A DNA stretch of 64,000 nucleotides from an uncultured SAR116 cluster alpha proteobacterium (GTDB lineage Bacteria; Pseudomonadota; Alphaproteobacteria; Puniceispirillales; Marisalimonadaceae). The stretch spans positions 1 to 64,000 of the forward strand of contig CABZWX010000002.1 of assembly GCA_902529515.1 (NCBI GenBank), written 5' to 3'. Both the position numbers and the translations under genes were made by a program. The notes under the pieces were generated by a model. The model was not told the origin of the DNA. It saw nothing but the letters and a program-made list of their open reading frames with translations, and ran no database searches. Of the stretch, positions 9,705 through 29,564 are shown in pieces; the stretch's first letter is position 1; every line of letters starts with the position of its first letter.

Positions 9705-10402
9705 TGATAAGTTTTGATGTAGAAAGAGACTTATATAACAAAAATATAATTATGATAGGAGTTGATGAAGCTGGAAGGGGTTCATGGGCTGGTCCCTTAG
9801 TGTCGACTGCATGTTGGTTTGATTTTACCAAATATAAATCTTTGCATTCAGAGATTAATGATAGCAAGAAATTAAAATCGTCTAAGCGAAGAGAAATAAT
9901 ATTATCATTAAATAATTTTGTTAAATATTCTTCTTCTATTTCCAGCGTATCTGAAATTGATAAGTATGGCCTTTCATATGCAAATGCAATTGCTATGAAG
10001 AGGTCTATCTTTTCACTAACTCAAGAATTAAAAAAACACCCACAAATATATAGAAATAAAGATATTTGTATTTCTGTTGATGGTAAATTTAAACCAGATT
10101 TTGAAAATTTGGATAATTTTTTACAACTTAACAAATTACATTTAGATAACTATTCAATTGAAGCTATTGTTAAGGGTGATTGTCTTTGCAAAACCATTGC
10201 TTTAGCAAGCATTATTTCTAAAGAAACAAGAGATACTGTAATGAGGCAATGGTCAAAAAAACATCCACTTTACTTGTTTGACAGTAATTTTGGATATGGG
10301 ACAAAAAATCATAAAAATGCTATTTTAAAAAATGGTATTTTAGATTTACATAGAAAATCTTTCAAACCTATTGCTACTATATATAGTAAAATAAAATTAT
10401 AA
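9704..10402 (+). CDS. rnhB: Ribonuclease HII
   Basis: Removes ribonucleotides and RNA primers from RNA-DNA hybrids. Seen: GVDEAGRGSWAGPL with catalytic D21 and E22, ISVDGKFKPD with D126, and the ASIISKETRD helix. Length 232 aa fits. Its ATG overlaps the TAA of moaB (TAATG), indicating coupled translation. rnhB next to ccrM is a familiar alphaproteobacterial pairing. Confidence 0.93.
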   Translation: MISFDVERDLYNKNIIMIGVDEAGRGSWAGPLVSTACWFDFTKYKSLHSEINDSKKLKSSKRREIILSLNNFVKYSSSISSVSEIDKYGLSYANAIAMKRSIFSLTQELKKHPQIYRNKDICISVDGKFKPDFENLDNFLQLNKLHLDNYSIEAIVKGDCLCKTIALASIISKETRDTVMRQWSKKHPLYLFDSNFGYGTKNHKNAILKNGILDLHRKSFKPIATIYSKIKL

Positions 10403-10469
10403 TTATACACATATTGTAGATATTAAATAAATTTAACTAAGTAATTGACTTTATTGAATAATTATAATT

Positions 10470-10497
10470 TTATCCACAATATATTAACAATATATTA
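10470..10497. promoter_or_regulatory. DnaA box followed by an 11-bp AT-rich tandem repeat
   Basis: TTATCCACA at 10470-10478 is a perfect consensus DnaA box. It runs directly into two exact tandem copies of ACAATATATTA (10476-10486 and 10487-10497), then AAT ATATAA. The element lies 20-47 bases before the ccrM start. It may let DnaA control ccrM, or be a small unwinding-type element. No second DnaA box was seen in the gap, so it is unlikely to be the chromosome origin alone. Confidence 0.5.
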
Positions 10498-24018: not shown

Positions 24019-24909
24019 TTATTTAAAATTTGAAATAACAGAGGCTATTTCTTTTTCTTGTTTATATCCCATTAAATGAATTCCACTAACGCCTTCAATA
24101 GATTTATATTTTTCTATTAATTCAATACAAATTTTAATACCTTCGTGGCTTTCGTCATTAGATTGTTCAATTCTATTGATTATTTCCTCAGGAATATTGA
24201 TACCAAAAAGATTTTTGTTCATCCATCTAGCACTTTTTGCAGATTTAATTACTCCTAATCCAATTATGAAATAAGCTTTGTCAGTAATATTTAATTCATT
24301 TAACTTTAGCATATAATTTTTTAGAATATCTTCCTCGAAAACGTATTGTGTTTGAAAAAATTCGACACCAGCTTCAATTTTTTTTACTAAGTTTAAACCA
24401 TCAAAATCATTGTTAATTTTAAATGGTGTATCTGCTCCACCAATGAAAAATTCTGGTGCATCATTAATTTTTCTTCCAGAAGGATACATTTTTTTTGTTT
24501 TAATTTCGTGAGCAGTTTTCAATATACCAATTGTATCTAGATCTCTAACTTCTTTGGTATCTGGTTGATCTCCGCCTTTAACTTCATCACCATACAAACA
24601 AAGAATGTTTGGAATATCCAATGCCCACCCCCCAAGAAGATCACCTTGTATTGCAATCCTATTTCTATCTCTGGTGGTAAATTGTAAAATTGGTTCAATT
24701 CCATTTTGAGCAAGAATAGCTGCTGTCGCAAGAGCTGACATATGAGATTTTGCGCCTGCTCCATCAGTAACGTTAATCGCATCAGCTAAACCGTTTAAAC
24801 ATTTTACTTCATCTATAATAACATCTTTATTGCCAGAATCTGGTGGAGAAGTTTCGGCCGTAAAAACAAATTTATTTTCATTAAGTAATTTTCTTAATTT
24901 ACTTTTCAT
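24019..24909 (-). CDS. metF: Methylenetetrahydrofolate reductase family protein
   Basis: FAD-dependent TIM-barrel enzyme interconverting 5,10-methylene- and 5-methyl-THF. Seen: FTAETSPPDSGNKD near residue 15, INVTDGAGAKSHMS, a PILQFTTRDRNRIAIQGDLLGGW active/FAD region, and LCLYGDEVKGGDQPD. The ATG at 24909 gives 296 aa; a longer frame to 24960 would read back into the neighbouring start and lacks conserved residues. It is divergent from the dmdA-like gene with 51 bases between starts. There it may run in the oxidative direction on the methyl-THF that DMSP demethylation makes. Confidence 0.85.
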   Translation of the reverse strand: MKSKLRKLLNENKFVFTAETSPPDSGNKDVIIDEVKCLNGLADAINVTDGAGAKSHMSALATAAILAQNGIEPILQFTTRDRNRIAIQGDLLGGWALDIPNILCLYGDEVKGGDQPDTKEVRDLDTIGILKTAHEIKTKKMYPSGRKINDAPEFFIGGADTPFKINNDFDGLNLVKKIEAGVEFFQTQYVFEEDILKNYMLKLNELNITDKAYFIIGLGVIKSAKSARWMNKNLFGINIPEEIINRIEQSNDESHEGIKICIELIEKYKSIEGVSGIHLMGYKQEKEIASVISNFK

Positions 24910-24960
24910 AAAATATGTCCAAAGTAATTTATAGATATTGTTTAATTGGGGTACAAACAA

Positions 24961-26064
24961 ATGTCTAATAGTTTTTTAATTAACACATCTAATAGAATTA
25001 GAAGAACACCATTTACTTCTAGAAATGAGTTAGCAGGTGTTAAAAATTATACTGTCTATAATAACACATTATTACCTACAATATTTAAATCATTAAATGA
25101 AGATTATTATCATCTAATAAAAAATGTTCAGTTATGGGATGTTTGTGCCCAAAGAGTTATTGAAGTTAAAGGCAGAAAATCTTTGTCATTAATGCAATAT
25201 CTTTTTTGTAGAGATTTTTCTAATATTTCTTCTGGTAAAGCATATTATGCACCAATAGTTAACTTTGAAGGCGGATTATTAAATGATCCAGTTGTTTTTT
25301 GCATCGCTGATAATCATTTCTTGATTTCTTTATCTGATTCAGATTTGTTTAATTGGGTCTCTGCAATTAATAATTCAAAAGAATTTTATTCTGAAGTAAG
25401 AGAAACCGATATATTTACAATTGCTATTCAAGGACCAAAATCTGAAAAATTAGCTCAAAAAATCTTTGGTAAAGAAATACAAAACTTGAAATATTTTAAT
25501 TTCATAAAATTTCTATTCAATGAAGAAGAAATTATGATTTCGAAAACAGGTTACAGCAAACAATCTGGTTACGAAATTTTACTAAGTAATCCAAATAAAG
25601 CAATTATGTTGTGGGATCTAATAATGGAAAAAGGCAAGGAATTTAAAATTCGGGTTGGGTGTCCAAATATGATTGAGAGAGTAGAGAATAATCTTCTTAG
25701 TTACGGAAATGAGATGACAGTTAATGACACGCCCTTTGATTGTGGGTTAGGAAATTTTTGTGATCTTGACTTAGATTATGAATTTATTGGAAAGTCTTCT
25801 TTATTGAAACAAAAACAGCTTGGCTTTAAAAGAGATATATTTAAAATTCAATTTAATTTTGAAATAGAAGATAAACCAATTTTTTTTAATAATATCTCAA
25901 TTTTTAAAAAAGATGTAGAAATTGGAAAAGCAACTTCAATTGTTTGGTCACCTAAATATTCGAAATATATAGGTTTTTTAATTGCATCAAAAAATATAAC
26001 GAACAACCTCAATGATTATTACATCTTAGATAAAGTCAAATTTGATTTATTAAGTGTTTCCTGA
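24961..26064 (+). CDS. dmdA: Probable DMSP demethylase / GcvT-family aminomethyltransferase
   Basis: Folate-dependent GcvT-fold protein, 367 aa. It has features I associate with DmdA: N-terminal R-R-T-P-F (14-18) and GVKNYTVYNNTLLP, YYHLIKNVQLWDV, AYYAPIVNFEGGLLNDPV, IAIQGPKSEKLAQKIFG, SGYEI, and IERVENNLLSYGNEMT. GcvT proper usually has a DD pair in its GG-x2-DD motif where this has NDP. No gcvH or gcvP is nearby. DmdA transfers a methyl from dimethylsulfoniopropionate to THF, giving methylmercaptopropionate and 5-methyl-THF. The ATG at 24961, with GGGG at 24948-24951, is preferred to a TTG at 24946. DmdA is favoured but another methyltransferase of this family is possible. Confidence 0.65.
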   Translation: MSNSFLINTSNRIRRTPFTSRNELAGVKNYTVYNNTLLPTIFKSLNEDYYHLIKNVQLWDVCAQRVIEVKGRKSLSLMQYLFCRDFSNISSGKAYYAPIVNFEGGLLNDPVVFCIADNHFLISLSDSDLFNWVSAINNSKEFYSEVRETDIFTIAIQGPKSEKLAQKIFGKEIQNLKYFNFIKFLFNEEEIMISKTGYSKQSGYEILLSNPNKAIMLWDLIMEKGKEFKIRVGCPNMIERVENNLLSYGNEMTVNDTPFDCGLGNFCDLDLDYEFIGKSSLLKQKQLGFKRDIFKIQFNFEIEDKPIFFNNISIFKKDVEIGKATSIVWSPKYSKYIGFLIASKNITNNLNDYYILDKVKFDLLSVS

Positions 26065-26484
26065 GCGTTTTTATTGAATTTTAGAGGCAGTCAAAGTACT
26101 TAATATAGCCTATTCCATGCTTCAATTTCACATAATGTGCAACAATTTCAATTATATAATTATACGAAAACATCGTCAATGTGCTCATTTTGTCTGCCTT
26201 TTGTCTACAATAAAATAATAGTTCTTAGTGTGGGTATTTGTAGACATTATCAAATGGCAAAATTGTAAAGACAGAGAGTGGTGCAACGCGTATTGATTAA
26301 CAAAAGATTTTTATATATATTTAGAAATAATCAGAATTCTAAATTAGACTAAGTACACCAAATGGTGACATTTTCAAGATACAAAAATCATAACTATCAA
26401 TTTGGCAATTTGGTTAATTTTTTCAGTTAGTTTTAATTTATGTTAAAGTTTTATAAATTTTAATTATATAGGTTTAAATTTATC
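26065..26484. other. 420-base gap with an 11-bp-spaced direct repeat
   Basis: No convincing gene. The gap holds TTTTGTCT twice in direct orientation with 11-base period (26188-26195 and 26199-26206), a spacing used by OmpR/PhoB-type regulators. A 35-codon open frame on the minus strand (26081-26188) lacks a good ribosome site. The part near 26270-26290 is slightly richer in GC. It marks the border between dmdA and a patch of small unknown genes and may contain decayed sequence. Confidence 0.5.
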
Positions 26485-26802
26485 ATGTTTACAAGAATTC
26501 ATGTTTTGAAATTTCAAAACAAAGTTGCAAAAGACAGCTTAAAAAATACCTGTAGGTTAATAAATGATAAATTACTAAAAAAAGGACTATATAGTTCAAC
26601 CTTTGTTGATGTTAATGACACAAACCTCTATATAATCAACACATGGAAAGATGAAAAAACCTCAGACAAAGCTCATTCACAATATACTGATTTTGTAAAA
26701 CAAGTTAAAGAAATGGGAGTTAATATAGTTATTGTCGGTGGTGATACCGAAGTTATATATTCTGATCCTTACATATTACAAAAATATACCAAAGTAGAAT
26801 AA
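26485..26802 (+). CDS. Small protein, possible dimeric alpha+beta barrel (ABM-like)
   Basis: 105 aa, not firmly recognised. Predicted order is strand (FTRIHVLKFQ), helix (AKDSLKNTCRLINDKLLKK), strand (YSSTFVDVND), strand (LYIINTWKDE), helix (HSQYTDFVKQVKEMG), strand (NIVIVGGDTEVIY). That order, and the N-T-W-x-D-E step before the second helix, resembles antibiotic-biosynthesis-monooxygenase/stress-barrel proteins. No catalytic residue can be named. It is convergent with the next gene over eight bases. Confidence 0.65.
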   Translation: MFTRIHVLKFQNKVAKDSLKNTCRLINDKLLKKGLYSSTFVDVNDTNLYIINTWKDEKTSDKAHSQYTDFVKQVKEMGVNIVIVGGDTEVIYSDPYILQKYTKVE

Positions 26803-26810
26803 TAATTTAA

Positions 26811-27359
26811 TTATACTAAAAACTTGCTCTTTTTATAGTTTACCATCCATTTTTCAAAAACTAATATTGCTTCATTCATATCAGCAGTTTTGTTTGGATG
26901 TTTTTTTGCTCTACCTAACATGGTGGATACAACATTAACCTGATATTTTTTATCTCTGTCTTTTATTGCATCTATTGTATAGGTTGCTTTTTCTTTGTTC
27001 TTAAATCCAAGTCCTTTTAGAGTTGTCTCAGGCTTGTAATCTGAATATAGAGATAGATTAAGAGGTTTTAACTTTCCCTGATAGTTTTGCTTACTTATTG
27101 GCATAGAATCTATAAGATCAAAAATAATATTAGGTTCTAAAGTTGAATATTCTTTTTTTAAAGTACCATCGTAACCTATTAATTTAATAGAAAACTTAAG
27201 ACCCTTTTTTCTGAAAGACATTAATTTGACATGCCTTTTATGAAATTCTTTTATATGCTTTTGATAAAGTTCTTTGGATTTTTTGTAGTTATTATCTCTG
27301 TAGCAAGTCGTACATAGCAAGAGTATTCTACATTTCCATTTGTATTTCGTTAAATCCAT
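26811..27359 (-). CDS. DUF4174-like protein with an unknown C-terminal domain
   Basis: 182 aa. Residues about 5-95 resemble DUF4174: L-x-KYKWKCRILLLCTT, then helix ELYQKHIKEFHKRHVKLM, SIKLIGYDGTLKKEY and FDLIDSMPISKQ. Residues 105-182 (SLYSDYKPETTLKGLGFKNKEKA...NVVSTMLGRAKKHPNKT...AILVFEKWM) form a second, helical and basic segment that I do not recognise. It has no signal peptide. Function unknown. It follows two tiny membrane-protein genes on the same strand, 16 bases after the second. Confidence 0.65.
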   Translation of the reverse strand: MDLTKYKWKCRILLLCTTCYRDNNYKKSKELYQKHIKEFHKRHVKLMSFRKKGLKFSIKLIGYDGTLKKEYSTLEPNIIFDLIDSMPISKQNYQGKLKPLNLSLYSDYKPETTLKGLGFKNKEKATYTIDAIKDRDKKYQVNVVSTMLGRAKKHPNKTADMNEAILVFEKWMVNYKKSKFLV

Positions 27360-27375
27360 TATTCATTAATTTGCA

Positions 27376-27528
27376 TTAACTATTTTCCGGATCAACACTA
27401 TCATTTTCAGTTTTACTAATTTGATCTTTCTTTTTTTTCATTTTGCAAACTTCTTTTAGAGCTAGACCAGCCATTACTCCTACGCCCATACCTATAATAG
27501 TGCCTTTGATTATTCCTAATCCAAACAT
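27376..27528 (-). CDS. Tiny membrane protein (50 aa)
   Basis: 50 codons, starting MFGLGIIKGTIIGMGVGVMA: one Gly-rich hydrophobic helix (about 2-24), then a basic KMKKKK stretch and a short acidic tail ending DPENS. The ribosome site AGGAG lies six bases before the ATG, and its TAG is the stop codon of the preceding small gene, a strong sign that both are translated. Gly-zipper-like spacing in the helix could support oligomers; that is inference. Function unknown. Confidence 0.65.
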   Translation of the reverse strand: MFGLGIIKGTIIGMGVGVMAGLALKEVCKMKKKKDQISKTENDSVDPENS

Positions 27529-27537
27529 TTTAAACTC

Positions 27538-27654
27538 CTAATTTTCTATCCATGAAATAAATTGATAAAAACCAAAAAGAATACCAAAGAAAACATAAAG
27601 TCTAGCTTGAGATCTCAATATTGGTATAACTATGATTTTTTGTATTGTTGACAT
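27538..27654 (-). CDS. Tiny membrane protein (38 aa)
   Basis: 38 codons, starting MSTIQKIIVIPILRSQARLY and continuing with one hydrophobic helix VFFGILFGFYQFISWI, ending with IEN. It has a charged residue pair before the helix (R14, R18), giving an N-in topology. The stop codon is part of the ribosome site of the next small gene. No strong ribosome site of its own is visible. Function unknown. Confidence 0.55.
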   Translation of the reverse strand: MSTIQKIIVIPILRSQARLYVFFGILFGFYQFISWIEN

Positions 27655-27808
27655 AGTAATTATTTAATCTTTTTTTAAATAATATTCAATATCACTAAAT
27701 ATTATCCAAAAATTCAGGTTTGTTGCGTTGAGAATTTTAGAAGTTATTTAAAACTTGGTAGACTGACAATTCCTGTATATTTTCAAAAATAAATTTAAAA
27801 CTTATAAA

Positions 27809-28153
27809 TCAACTTCTATAATCATGAAGAACAATTCCTCTATTGTTCCTATATTTAGTGTTATAATTTTTTCCTACTTTTGGAACTACTTTCTCTTCAA
27901 TTATTTTTTGACAGTCTTTATATGCTTTCTCAGACTCATATTCAAAAACCCTTGTAAGCCTGTGATTTTCTTTGTTCCAAACTTGGGAGACTGTTACTCT
28001 AATCAACCCAGCTTTAGAAAGCTCTGCCATTAAATCATCAGTCCATATTCTATCTTGAAAGGTTTCAAGCCAATGCTCTAATTCAATCTTTGAAGGAAAA
28101 TCTAACTCCATAACATTCATAAATAGAGTTTCTTTAGTTATAGGTTTTACCAT
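27809..28153 (-). CDS. Small protein of a tandem paralogous pair, copy 1
   Basis: 114 aa, unrecognised. The ribosome site AGGTGA sits five bases before the ATG. Predicted strand-helix-strand-strand-helix order (ETLFMNVMELDF; SKIELEHWLETFQDRIWTDDLMAELSKAG; VTVSQVWNKE; HRLTRVFEYE; SEKAYKDCQKIIEEKVVPKV) fits a ferredoxin-like alpha+beta barrel. It is about 60% identical to copy 2 over its whole length (VKPITKETLFMN, ELEHW, LSKAGL, VWNK, NHRLT, QKIIEEKV, DYRS), so the pair arose by tandem duplication. No signal peptide. Confidence 0.75.
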   Translation of the reverse strand: MVKPITKETLFMNVMELDFPSKIELEHWLETFQDRIWTDDLMAELSKAGLIRVTVSQVWNKENHRLTRVFEYESEKAYKDCQKIIEEKVVPKVGKNYNTKYRNNRGIVLHDYRS

Positions 28154-28241
28154 TTATCTCACCTTCTGAGGTTTTAATTAAAAAAACTGGGTAGCTTTAT
28201 CAAGAACAATTATCATTAAGAATTAGATATAAGGATCCAAA

Positions 28242-28585
28242 TCAACTTCTATAATCATAAAAAATTACCCCCTATTATTCCTAGACTTTATGGTATAACT
28301 TGCTAGTGCTTTAGGCATAACTTTTTCTTCAATTATCTTTTGACAAGCCTTGTAAGCATTCTCATCTTCATATTCAAATGTACTTGTTAATCTATGATTT
28401 TGTTTGTTCCAGACTTGGGCAACAGTTCTTCTTACTAATCCTGCTTTAGATAGTTCTTTCATTATATCTTCTGTCCATACTTTTTCTTCAAAAGTTGCCA
28501 TCCAGTGCTCTAATTCAACCTTTGTTGCAAAATCTAGCTCCATACAATTCATGAATAAAGTTTCTTTGGTTATTGGTTTTACCAT
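28242..28585 (-). pseudogene. Small protein of the tandem pair, copy 2, frameshifted in its last codons
   Basis: From the ATG at 28585 (ribosome site AGGTGA, as in copy 1) the frame runs to a stop at 28265 after NNRG, eight residues short of copy 1. On the minus strand the tail reads AGGGGGTAA. With six G instead of five it becomes RGVIFYDYRS then stop, matching RGIVLHDYRS of copy 1, and the restored gene is exactly 345 bases like copy 1. The C-run is at 28268-28272. The truncated form may still work. Function as for copy 1, unknown. Confidence 0.75.
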
Positions 28586-28708
28586 ATATGTCACCTGTTA
28601 GTATGAAAATTAAATATGCAAAAACATTAGTATGAATGCAAATAAACGATTTTATTTCTTTCAATTTTAATCCAATTTATTATATACATTCAATATTCAA
28701 TTCATGAT

Positions 28709-29371
28709 TTGAAACACAAAAAAAAAATGAAAATCTTATTTAAAATATTTATACTTATACTTTCTACATTACTTATCCAAAACAAAGCATTTTCTTACAG
28801 CAAAAATTCTGGAAAAGTAAGTGTAACTGTTTCTGTAAGTAAAGCAGATAAATCAGATGATACAAGTGCAGGAGTTAAAACTGAGGCTTCAGCAAGTAAA
28901 AGTATAGAAAATATTACCAACTCAAGCAAAGATAATGCACCTACTAGTAAAACTGCAGAAACACTATCTGTTCAAGACAACTCTAGCGAACAATCATATT
29001 CATATGACAATAACAACAATTCGTCAGACGATAATTATGATAGAAATAATAAATTTGCAAATAAAATAAATGGCTATAAATTTAGTAAAAATTATGAAAT
29101 AGCTGAAGAAGAAAGATTATTTGATGCTATTAAAAATTTTAAAAATGAAGAGAGTTTAAATAAGAGTGATCTGAAAAAAATAGATAGTTTAGTTAATAGA
29201 AGAATTAATGAAATTGCTAAAAAAATTAAATTCAAATTTGATAAAAAAGATGAAAAACAATTTTTTGAATTTACAGAAAAAACAAATTATGACATTGAAA
29301 TAATTGAGAAGAAAGCTGAATTAGTTGATTATGTTCAAAAGACTTTTGAAGTGATGGGATTAATTAATTAG
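28709..29371 (+). CDS. Exported low-complexity protein of unknown function
   Basis: 220 aa from a TTG; an ATG at 28727 (MKILFKIFILI) would also keep the signal peptide, and neither has a clear ribosome site. Residues 1-30 form a signal peptide ending near KAFS. About 35-115 is a Ser/Thr/Asn/Asp-rich unstructured stretch, and 120-220 is helical and charged (EERLFDAIKNFKNEE; SLVNRRINEIAKKIK; IEIIEKKAELVDYVQK), possibly coiled coil. It is not recognised. It lies between the small-protein patch and tRNA-Gly, and could be a surface or periplasmic factor. Confidence 0.6.
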   Translation: MKHKKKMKILFKIFILILSTLLIQNKAFSYSKNSGKVSVTVSVSKADKSDDTSAGVKTEASASKSIENITNSSKDNAPTSKTAETLSVQDNSSEQSYSYDNNNNSSDDNYDRNNKFANKINGYKFSKNYEIAEEERLFDAIKNFKNEESLNKSDLKKIDSLVNRRINEIAKKIKFKFDKKDEKQFFEFTEKTNYDIEIIEKKAELVDYVQKTFEVMGLIN

Positions 29372-29436
29372 ACCGATTAACAGTGAAAAAATTCTCATCT
29401 TTTATCTACTATATTGTCCATCCATTTAAAGCCCAC

Positions 29437-29448
29437 CCTTCTAGAAGG
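29437..29448. other. 12-bp perfect palindrome
   Basis: CCTTCTAGAAGG lies in the 118-base gap between the exported protein gene and tRNA-Gly. It could be a regulator site or the stem of a short terminator for the + strand gene. No T-run follows. Confidence 0.25.
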
Positions 29449-29489
29449 TTGAATATTTGAGTAAGACTGAGTATCTCAGCGAAGCGGAT

Positions 29490-29564
29490 TGGAGCGGGCG
29501 AAGAGATTCGAACTCTCGACATTCTCGTTGGCAACGAGATGCTCTACCACTGAGCTACGCCCGC
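29490..29564 (-). tRNA. tRNA-Gly (GCC)
   Basis: Minus strand, complete 75-base cloverleaf with encoded CCA. Acceptor stem GCGGGCG/CGCCCGC, D arm GCTC-AGTGGTA-GAGC, anticodon stem TCTCG/CGAGA around TTGCCAA with GCC, and T arm with TTCGAAT. The anticodon gives glycine. No duplicated 3' end was seen nearby, so there is no sign of an integrated element at this tRNA. Confidence 0.96.

Follow-up and report, generated by a model that had tools for sequence, protein, structure and literature searches.

A Patch of Small Genes Beside tRNA-Gly in a SAR116 Genome as Probable Cargo of an Integrative Element

Introduction

Among known systems, the closest to the locus described here are the tycheposons and further tyrosine-recombinase elements that target tRNAs in marine bacteria (PMC10872708, PMC10187409). 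Tycheposon-type elements insert beside a tRNA, keep a recombinase gene next to that tRNA and carry ecological cargo; they vary in content and orientation, and they leave degraded copies. The same traits were found at the tRNA-Gly of SAR116 bacteria. However, the SAR116 element differs from tycheposons in the size of its block (about 3 kb, with a whole element of 18 kb in genome G022), its tRNA-Gly target, its SAR116 host and its DUF6538-type recombinase, and the likeness is one of layout and cargo. Integrative elements targeting tRNAs are known; what is unusual here is the rare marine cargo.

The window was a stretch of 64,000 nucleotides from an uncultured SAR116 cluster bacterium, whose genome assembly is incomplete (62%). 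An earlier note on its sequence had singled out seven consecutive small genes next to tRNA-Gly (26485–29371) as its likeliest place for an undescribed system. On comparison with related genomes, the patch was very probably the cargo of a SAR116 integrative element inserted at the tRNA-Gly 3′ end, a judgement that covers the origin of the island alone and excludes the function of its genes. The genes would thus be united by their place in the element rather than as parts of one system. The coordinates of the features are listed in Table 1.

Table 1. Positions of the patch genes, the element borders and related features; positions without a locus prefix refer to the window.
Feature	Position	Strand	Description	Basis
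DmdA-like gene	24946..26064	+	Flank outside the element	NCBIfam NF009133, 383 bits, cut-off 410
GTAGACAAAA repeat	26199..26208	-	Near dmdA-side element end	Repeat search across genomes
Spacer travelling with A105	26369..26484	none	Adjoins tRNA-Gly in inverted genomes L068, L069, L057	
A105	26485..26802	+	Ferredoxin-like (ABM-type) small protein, optional cargo	Profile and model match to PDB 2od4
B182	26811..27359	-	DUF4174 domain and conserved helical C-terminal domain	Pfam PF13778, 28-member alignment, model
C50	27376..27528	-	Tiny Gly-rich membrane protein, C-KKK tail	dN/dS, alignment
D38	27538..27654	-	Tiny membrane protein	Position 5′ of C50 conserved in SAR116 and also in L090 and L093 (sister lineages)
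E1	27809..28153	-	DUF6974 protein, dimeric ferredoxin-like	Pfam PF22388, PDB 2op5
E2	28265..28585	-	DUF6974 protein, frameshifted near C-terminus	Pfam PF22388, intact orthologues
F220	28709..29371	+	Exported Ser/Asn-rich protein, helical C-terminus	Signal-peptide-like N-terminus read from sequence; dN/dS
Integrase-leader scar	29401..29488	-	Decayed to start-codon region	Aligns with tRNA-Gly-to-integrase-ATG sequence in L067, L181, L055
tRNA-Gly(GCC)	29490..29564	-	Integration site, 3′ end facing patch	3′ end copied at block's far end in relatives
SAR11 B182 with two small membrane-protein genes	L097:4354-5284, L098:7613-8549, L100:3487-4132		Similar set, arranged differently	
Dispersed repeat, 250-290 bp	L054:7824-8114; also L141, L142, L143, L144, L146, L148, L090, L139, L057			

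Gene Content of the Patch

All seven open reading frames proposed earlier were found in place, and the description of the region as densely packed with small, uncharacterised genes, with two tiny membrane proteins (C50 and D38) and one exported protein (F220), was confirmed. The reading frames are conserved coding genes and did not arise by chance. Most of them were under constraint: pooled dN/dS was 0.12–0.26 for B182 and C50, whereas F220 and D38, under the weakest constraint, had 0.26–0.60. Pooled dN/dS for E1 and E2 mixes paralogues, and orthologues were compared for these two genes; in the near group, the orthologues of E1 differed at 0–3% of residues and those of E2 at 0–1%.

Two gene calls were corrected. 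The second 114-aa gene of the earlier note exists, though not at that length: counted from its ATG, E2 in the window has 106 aa, and a G-run close to the C-terminus is one base shorter than in the intact orthologues, whose sequence ends in ...RNNRGVIFYDYRS. By this alignment E2 is a copy with a frameshift at its C-terminal end rather than another protein of 114 aa, and the frameshift is possibly a single-cell sequencing error. The 220-aa frame likewise stood, with a different start. It opens on TTG, and because codon 7 is the start in most orthologues, F220 likely begins at 28727 with a length of about 214 aa. Its predicted export was read from the signal-peptide-like N-terminus. Moreover, F220 was confined to the genus and broken in several relatives.

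Protein Families and Folds of the Cargo

The view that the seven genes lacked an assigned function held for mechanism but not for family, as relatives exist in DUF6974, DUF4174 and the PDB. Both E1 and E2 matched DUF6974 (PF22388) in Pfam, with E-values of 7e-15 and 3e-17, respectively, and profile scores of 55.5 and 62.9 bits against a curated cut-off of 26, and the match spanned the whole domain. E1 matched PDB 2op5 at 8e-26, and both proteins matched 2op5 and 2od6, which belong to the same fold family. Compared with other DUF6974 proteins, those of the window were two adjacent paralogues riding as mobile cargo. A105 matched PDB 2od4, a dimeric ferredoxin-like marine protein (profile E-value 5.8e-6), which was its best match by profile and by model despite an identity of only about 19%. 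The A105 model (pLDDT 84) had 2od4 as its best fold match, with TM of 0.77–0.80, and ABM-type monooxygenases ranked below it. The β-α-β-β-α-β ferredoxin-like order expected of a dimeric α+β barrel was present in this model. The prediction of three α+β proteins (A105, E1 and E2) was accordingly upheld by solved structures of ferredoxin-like fold. The structures 2od4, 2op5 and 2od6 were solved from novel ocean-metagenome families (PMC2557142). For these families, whose structures came from sequences without a known source, the locus now supplies a host, genomic surroundings and a way of spreading.

The N-terminal half of B182 matched DUF4174 (PF13778) at 4e-13, with 50.2 bits, above the family cut-off of 27. 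DUF4174 proteins have been predicted to be oxidoreductases (PMC10364804), and a thioredoxin-like fold is predicted for them. In the B182 model the C-terminal helices alone were confident, while the DUF4174 half was of low confidence and poor over residues 10–56. In the 28-member B182 alignment the C-terminal helical domain was strongly conserved between SAR116 and SAR11. It had no Pfam match and no fold match above the helical-bundle background (Z ≤ 7.1), and it may still have a known fold. B182 differs from DUF4174 as defined in Pfam by this extra domain, which the present comparison found in SAR116 and SAR11 alone.

Across the class, DUF6974 was found in 2 of 385 genomes, the window's own included, and B182-like matches in four of the same set. 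The window's genus carried up to eight DUF6974 copies per genome together with several A105-like paralogues, in other small-gene clusters. The named relatives retrieved with B182 came almost entirely from the SAR116 cluster, most of them as single-cell genomes, with a few more from SAR11, which places the window in SAR116. In addition, a non-coding dispersed repeat of about 250–290 bp recurred in the small barrel-gene clusters. It contains a GTAGAC repeat resembling that of the recombinase leader. Its copies in L054 and L057 extend as far as the tRNA-Gly fragment.

Insertion Site and Borders of the Element

Wherever a contig of a relative held both neighbours, the block was flanked by tRNA-Gly on one side and by the dmdA-like gene on the other, in either of two orientations. 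An empty site was found in genome G030 (L134), where dmdA starts 20 bp past tRNA-Gly, and other genes occupied the same site in G017 and G034. Copies of tRNA-Gly of 70 bp, with 94–100% identity and lacking only the first bases of the tRNA, stood at the dmdA end in L052, L054, L058 and L059, while L062 retained a remnant of 15 bp. The 70-bp copies are the pattern left by recombination into the 3′ end of a tRNA. The emphasis placed earlier on the neighbouring tRNA-Gly was justified, and in SAR116 relatives this tRNA is the insertion site of the element. Across the relatives, the locus had the marks of a tRNA-integrated genomic island: direct repeats from insertion into the 3′ end of the tRNA, an integrase beside the tRNA, an empty site and a history unlike that of the flanks. 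Within the window itself, neither a second tRNA-Gly copy nor a recombinase was found, and both are inferred from the relatives; nor did any long direct or inverted repeat bound the block there. Rfam recovered only tRNAs in the window, and the spacer between dmdA and A105 was not a repeated element in the window's own genome.

The DmdA-like gene, named after the DMSP demethylase model, overlaps a divergent MetF-like gene (24019–26064), and the pair forms the far flank of the island. A secreted polysaccharide-lyase-type gene was present inside the block in two genomes (L060:11726-12631, with Pfam PF14099, and L061:8969-9874), which indicates that the cassette takes up further genes.

Recombinase and Its Remains

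In G031, a tyrosine recombinase that carries a DUF6538 domain at its N-terminus was encoded at full length (390 aa) directly downstream of tRNA-Gly. Broken or partial recombinase genes lay beside tRNA-Gly in G022, G026, G033, G032, G004, G017 and G019, so that integrase genes or pieces adjoined the tRNA in eight genomes in all. The 18-kb element of G022 had the order tRNA-Gly, recombinase, exonuclease, block, tRNA copy and dmdA; one exonuclease and no helicase or packaging gene was recognised among the subset of its proteins that was scanned. In the window, about 88 bases next to the tRNA aligned with the recombinase leader. The counterparts of this stretch in L052, L054 and L051 still read ATGGTAGACAAA, and L052 and L054 retain the start codon. 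Hence, the window appears to have lost its integrase, with the leader scar as the remainder.

According to the proposed mechanism, the DUF6538-type recombinase, encoded right beside tRNA-Gly(GCC), would catalyse insertion of the element at the 3′ end of the tRNA, on the side towards the dmdA-like gene. In the window, the gene for the enzyme and the tRNA copy at the far end would then have decayed, so that the scar and an island of about 3.3 kb without an integrase are left. The two cargo orientations speak against the island account, since a tyrosine recombinase acting on a directional site would not produce both; the inversion may have arisen from recombination inside the element. Furthermore, the GTAGACAAAA repeat occurred near both block ends in many genomes, mostly on one strand (in the window alone it was not significant), and it may be an arm site of the recombinase.

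Alternatively, the block could be an ancient resident exchanged only by ordinary homologous recombination, with the tRNA copies and recombinases belonging to other elements that landed alongside. The block lacks a recombinase in most genomes, conserved flanks would permit homologous replacement, and some tRNA-Gly elements are without the block (L133). Nevertheless, in L052, L058 and L054 a tRNA copy marks the outer border of the block, immediately beside dmdA, and the integrase leader runs into F220. In sister lineages, the related cassette D38-C50-MAPEG-B182 directly follows a recombinase gene in L090 and a tRNA-Arg in L093. Together with the empty site of G030, these observations make an ancient resident improbable, and insertion as an integrative element is preferred.

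Two rearranged loci were also observed. In G019 (L184:10503-10775), the recombinase N-terminus by tRNA-Gly continued in frame into the C-terminal portion of a DUF6974 gene, apparently a deletion scar. In G031, a leuB-like gene replaces degT beyond tRNA-Gly, and the island contains a tRNA fragment in inverted orientation (L183:8614-8629, 10399-10473), which indicates that larger rearrangements happen at this site.

Exchange Between Species

In L052, L054, L055 and L058, silent codons differed from the window at 16–38% in the flanks and at 0–14% in orthologous block genes; E1 of L052 and E2 of L055 gave higher silent values, but these are paralogue comparisons, as the orthologue is absent from those loci. 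Pooled silent divergence in the near group was 0.05–0.18 for F220, D38, C50 and B182, compared with about 0.35–0.36 for flanking genes. In the B182 tree, eight genomes sharing the window's orientation formed one group (support 91/87), which the dmdA tree rejected (p-AU 8.9e-5). Orientation tracked the B182 tree, with 0 of 500 shuffles scoring as low, although most compared genomes are incomplete single-cell assemblies, in which rearrangement artefacts occur. The lower silent divergence of the block and the conflict between the two trees indicate that the block moved between species with its orientation. Such spread, with the inner orientation kept, could have proceeded through transfer of the element or through homologous recombination in its flanks. 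The tRNA-Gly is thus a hot spot in streamlined SAR116 genomes, at which small-gene cargo is exchanged between species.

Distribution of the Cargo Genes

Comparison of the locus between relatives, the check that the earlier note had proposed, found C50 and B182 together in 21 of 21 loci and D38 with them in 20, but did not find A105, E1, E2 and F220 travelling as constantly. The seven genes could in principle form one co-operating undescribed system that merely lies next to a tRNA. This would agree with the constant presence of the three genes, with their tight spacing (9 bp between D38 and C50, 16 bp between C50 and B182) and with the fact that most loci have one or more DUF6974 genes. On the other hand, A105 was found in a minority of relatives and was broken in several of those, and E1 was present in some genomes and at a second locus in others. 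E2, F220, A105 and B182 were disrupted in different genomes, E2 and F220 each in several, F220 and A105 lie on the strand opposite to the other five genes, and SAR11 has B182 without E, F or A genes. With distribution scattered beyond C50, B182 and D38, the claim of one undescribed system was not borne out, and such a system is very unlikely. We see D38-C50-B182 as a probable unit and the other cargo genes as several independent passengers of the element.

In the sister SAR116 lineages, the gene between C50 and B182 encodes a MAPEG membrane protein (L090:5321-6540, L093:7333-8552).

Proposed Function of the Cargo

Islands at tRNAs often carry anti-phage or toxin-antitoxin modules, and small membrane proteins are typical of some of these. 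The position of the cargo in an integrative element would suit such a module. However, PADLOC gave no meaningful match (the best was 0.006, over a 50-residue stretch), the small proteins were unlike any known toxin in Pfam or NCBIfam, and no relatives were found in viral contigs by three single-protein scans that could reach close relatives only. PHROGs likewise had no meaningful match for the patch proteins. A defence or toxin-antitoxin role is accordingly held to be quite improbable.

A protective small-molecule set, comprising a membrane-tethered thiol/detoxification module and small-molecule-binding barrel proteins, is suggested tentatively as the role of the cargo, with considerable doubt. 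The thiol/detoxification part is proposed because of DUF4174 in B182 and of the MAPEG gene that the sister operon contains. On this view, C50 and D38 would recruit B182, as a protein of thioredoxin fold, to the membrane, and E1, E2 and A105 might be dimeric barrels that bind or convert small hydrophobic compounds, by analogy with their ABM-fold relatives. A still broader proposal is that D38-C50-B182, with MAPEG in the sisters, is a new thiol/detoxification membrane module, carried with DUF6974 and 2od4-type barrels by an undescribed family of SAR116 tRNA-Gly elements whose recombinase also spreads other small barrel-gene clusters; taken as a whole, this is unlikely.

C50 and a 48-aa protein of SAR11 look alike, but their alignment was too short to support a claim of kinship. 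B182 with its small membrane neighbours, partly shared with SAR11, provides a defined target for biochemistry. The SAR11 homologues of B182 had about 60% identity where complete, and in three records they faced two small membrane-protein genes on the opposite strand.
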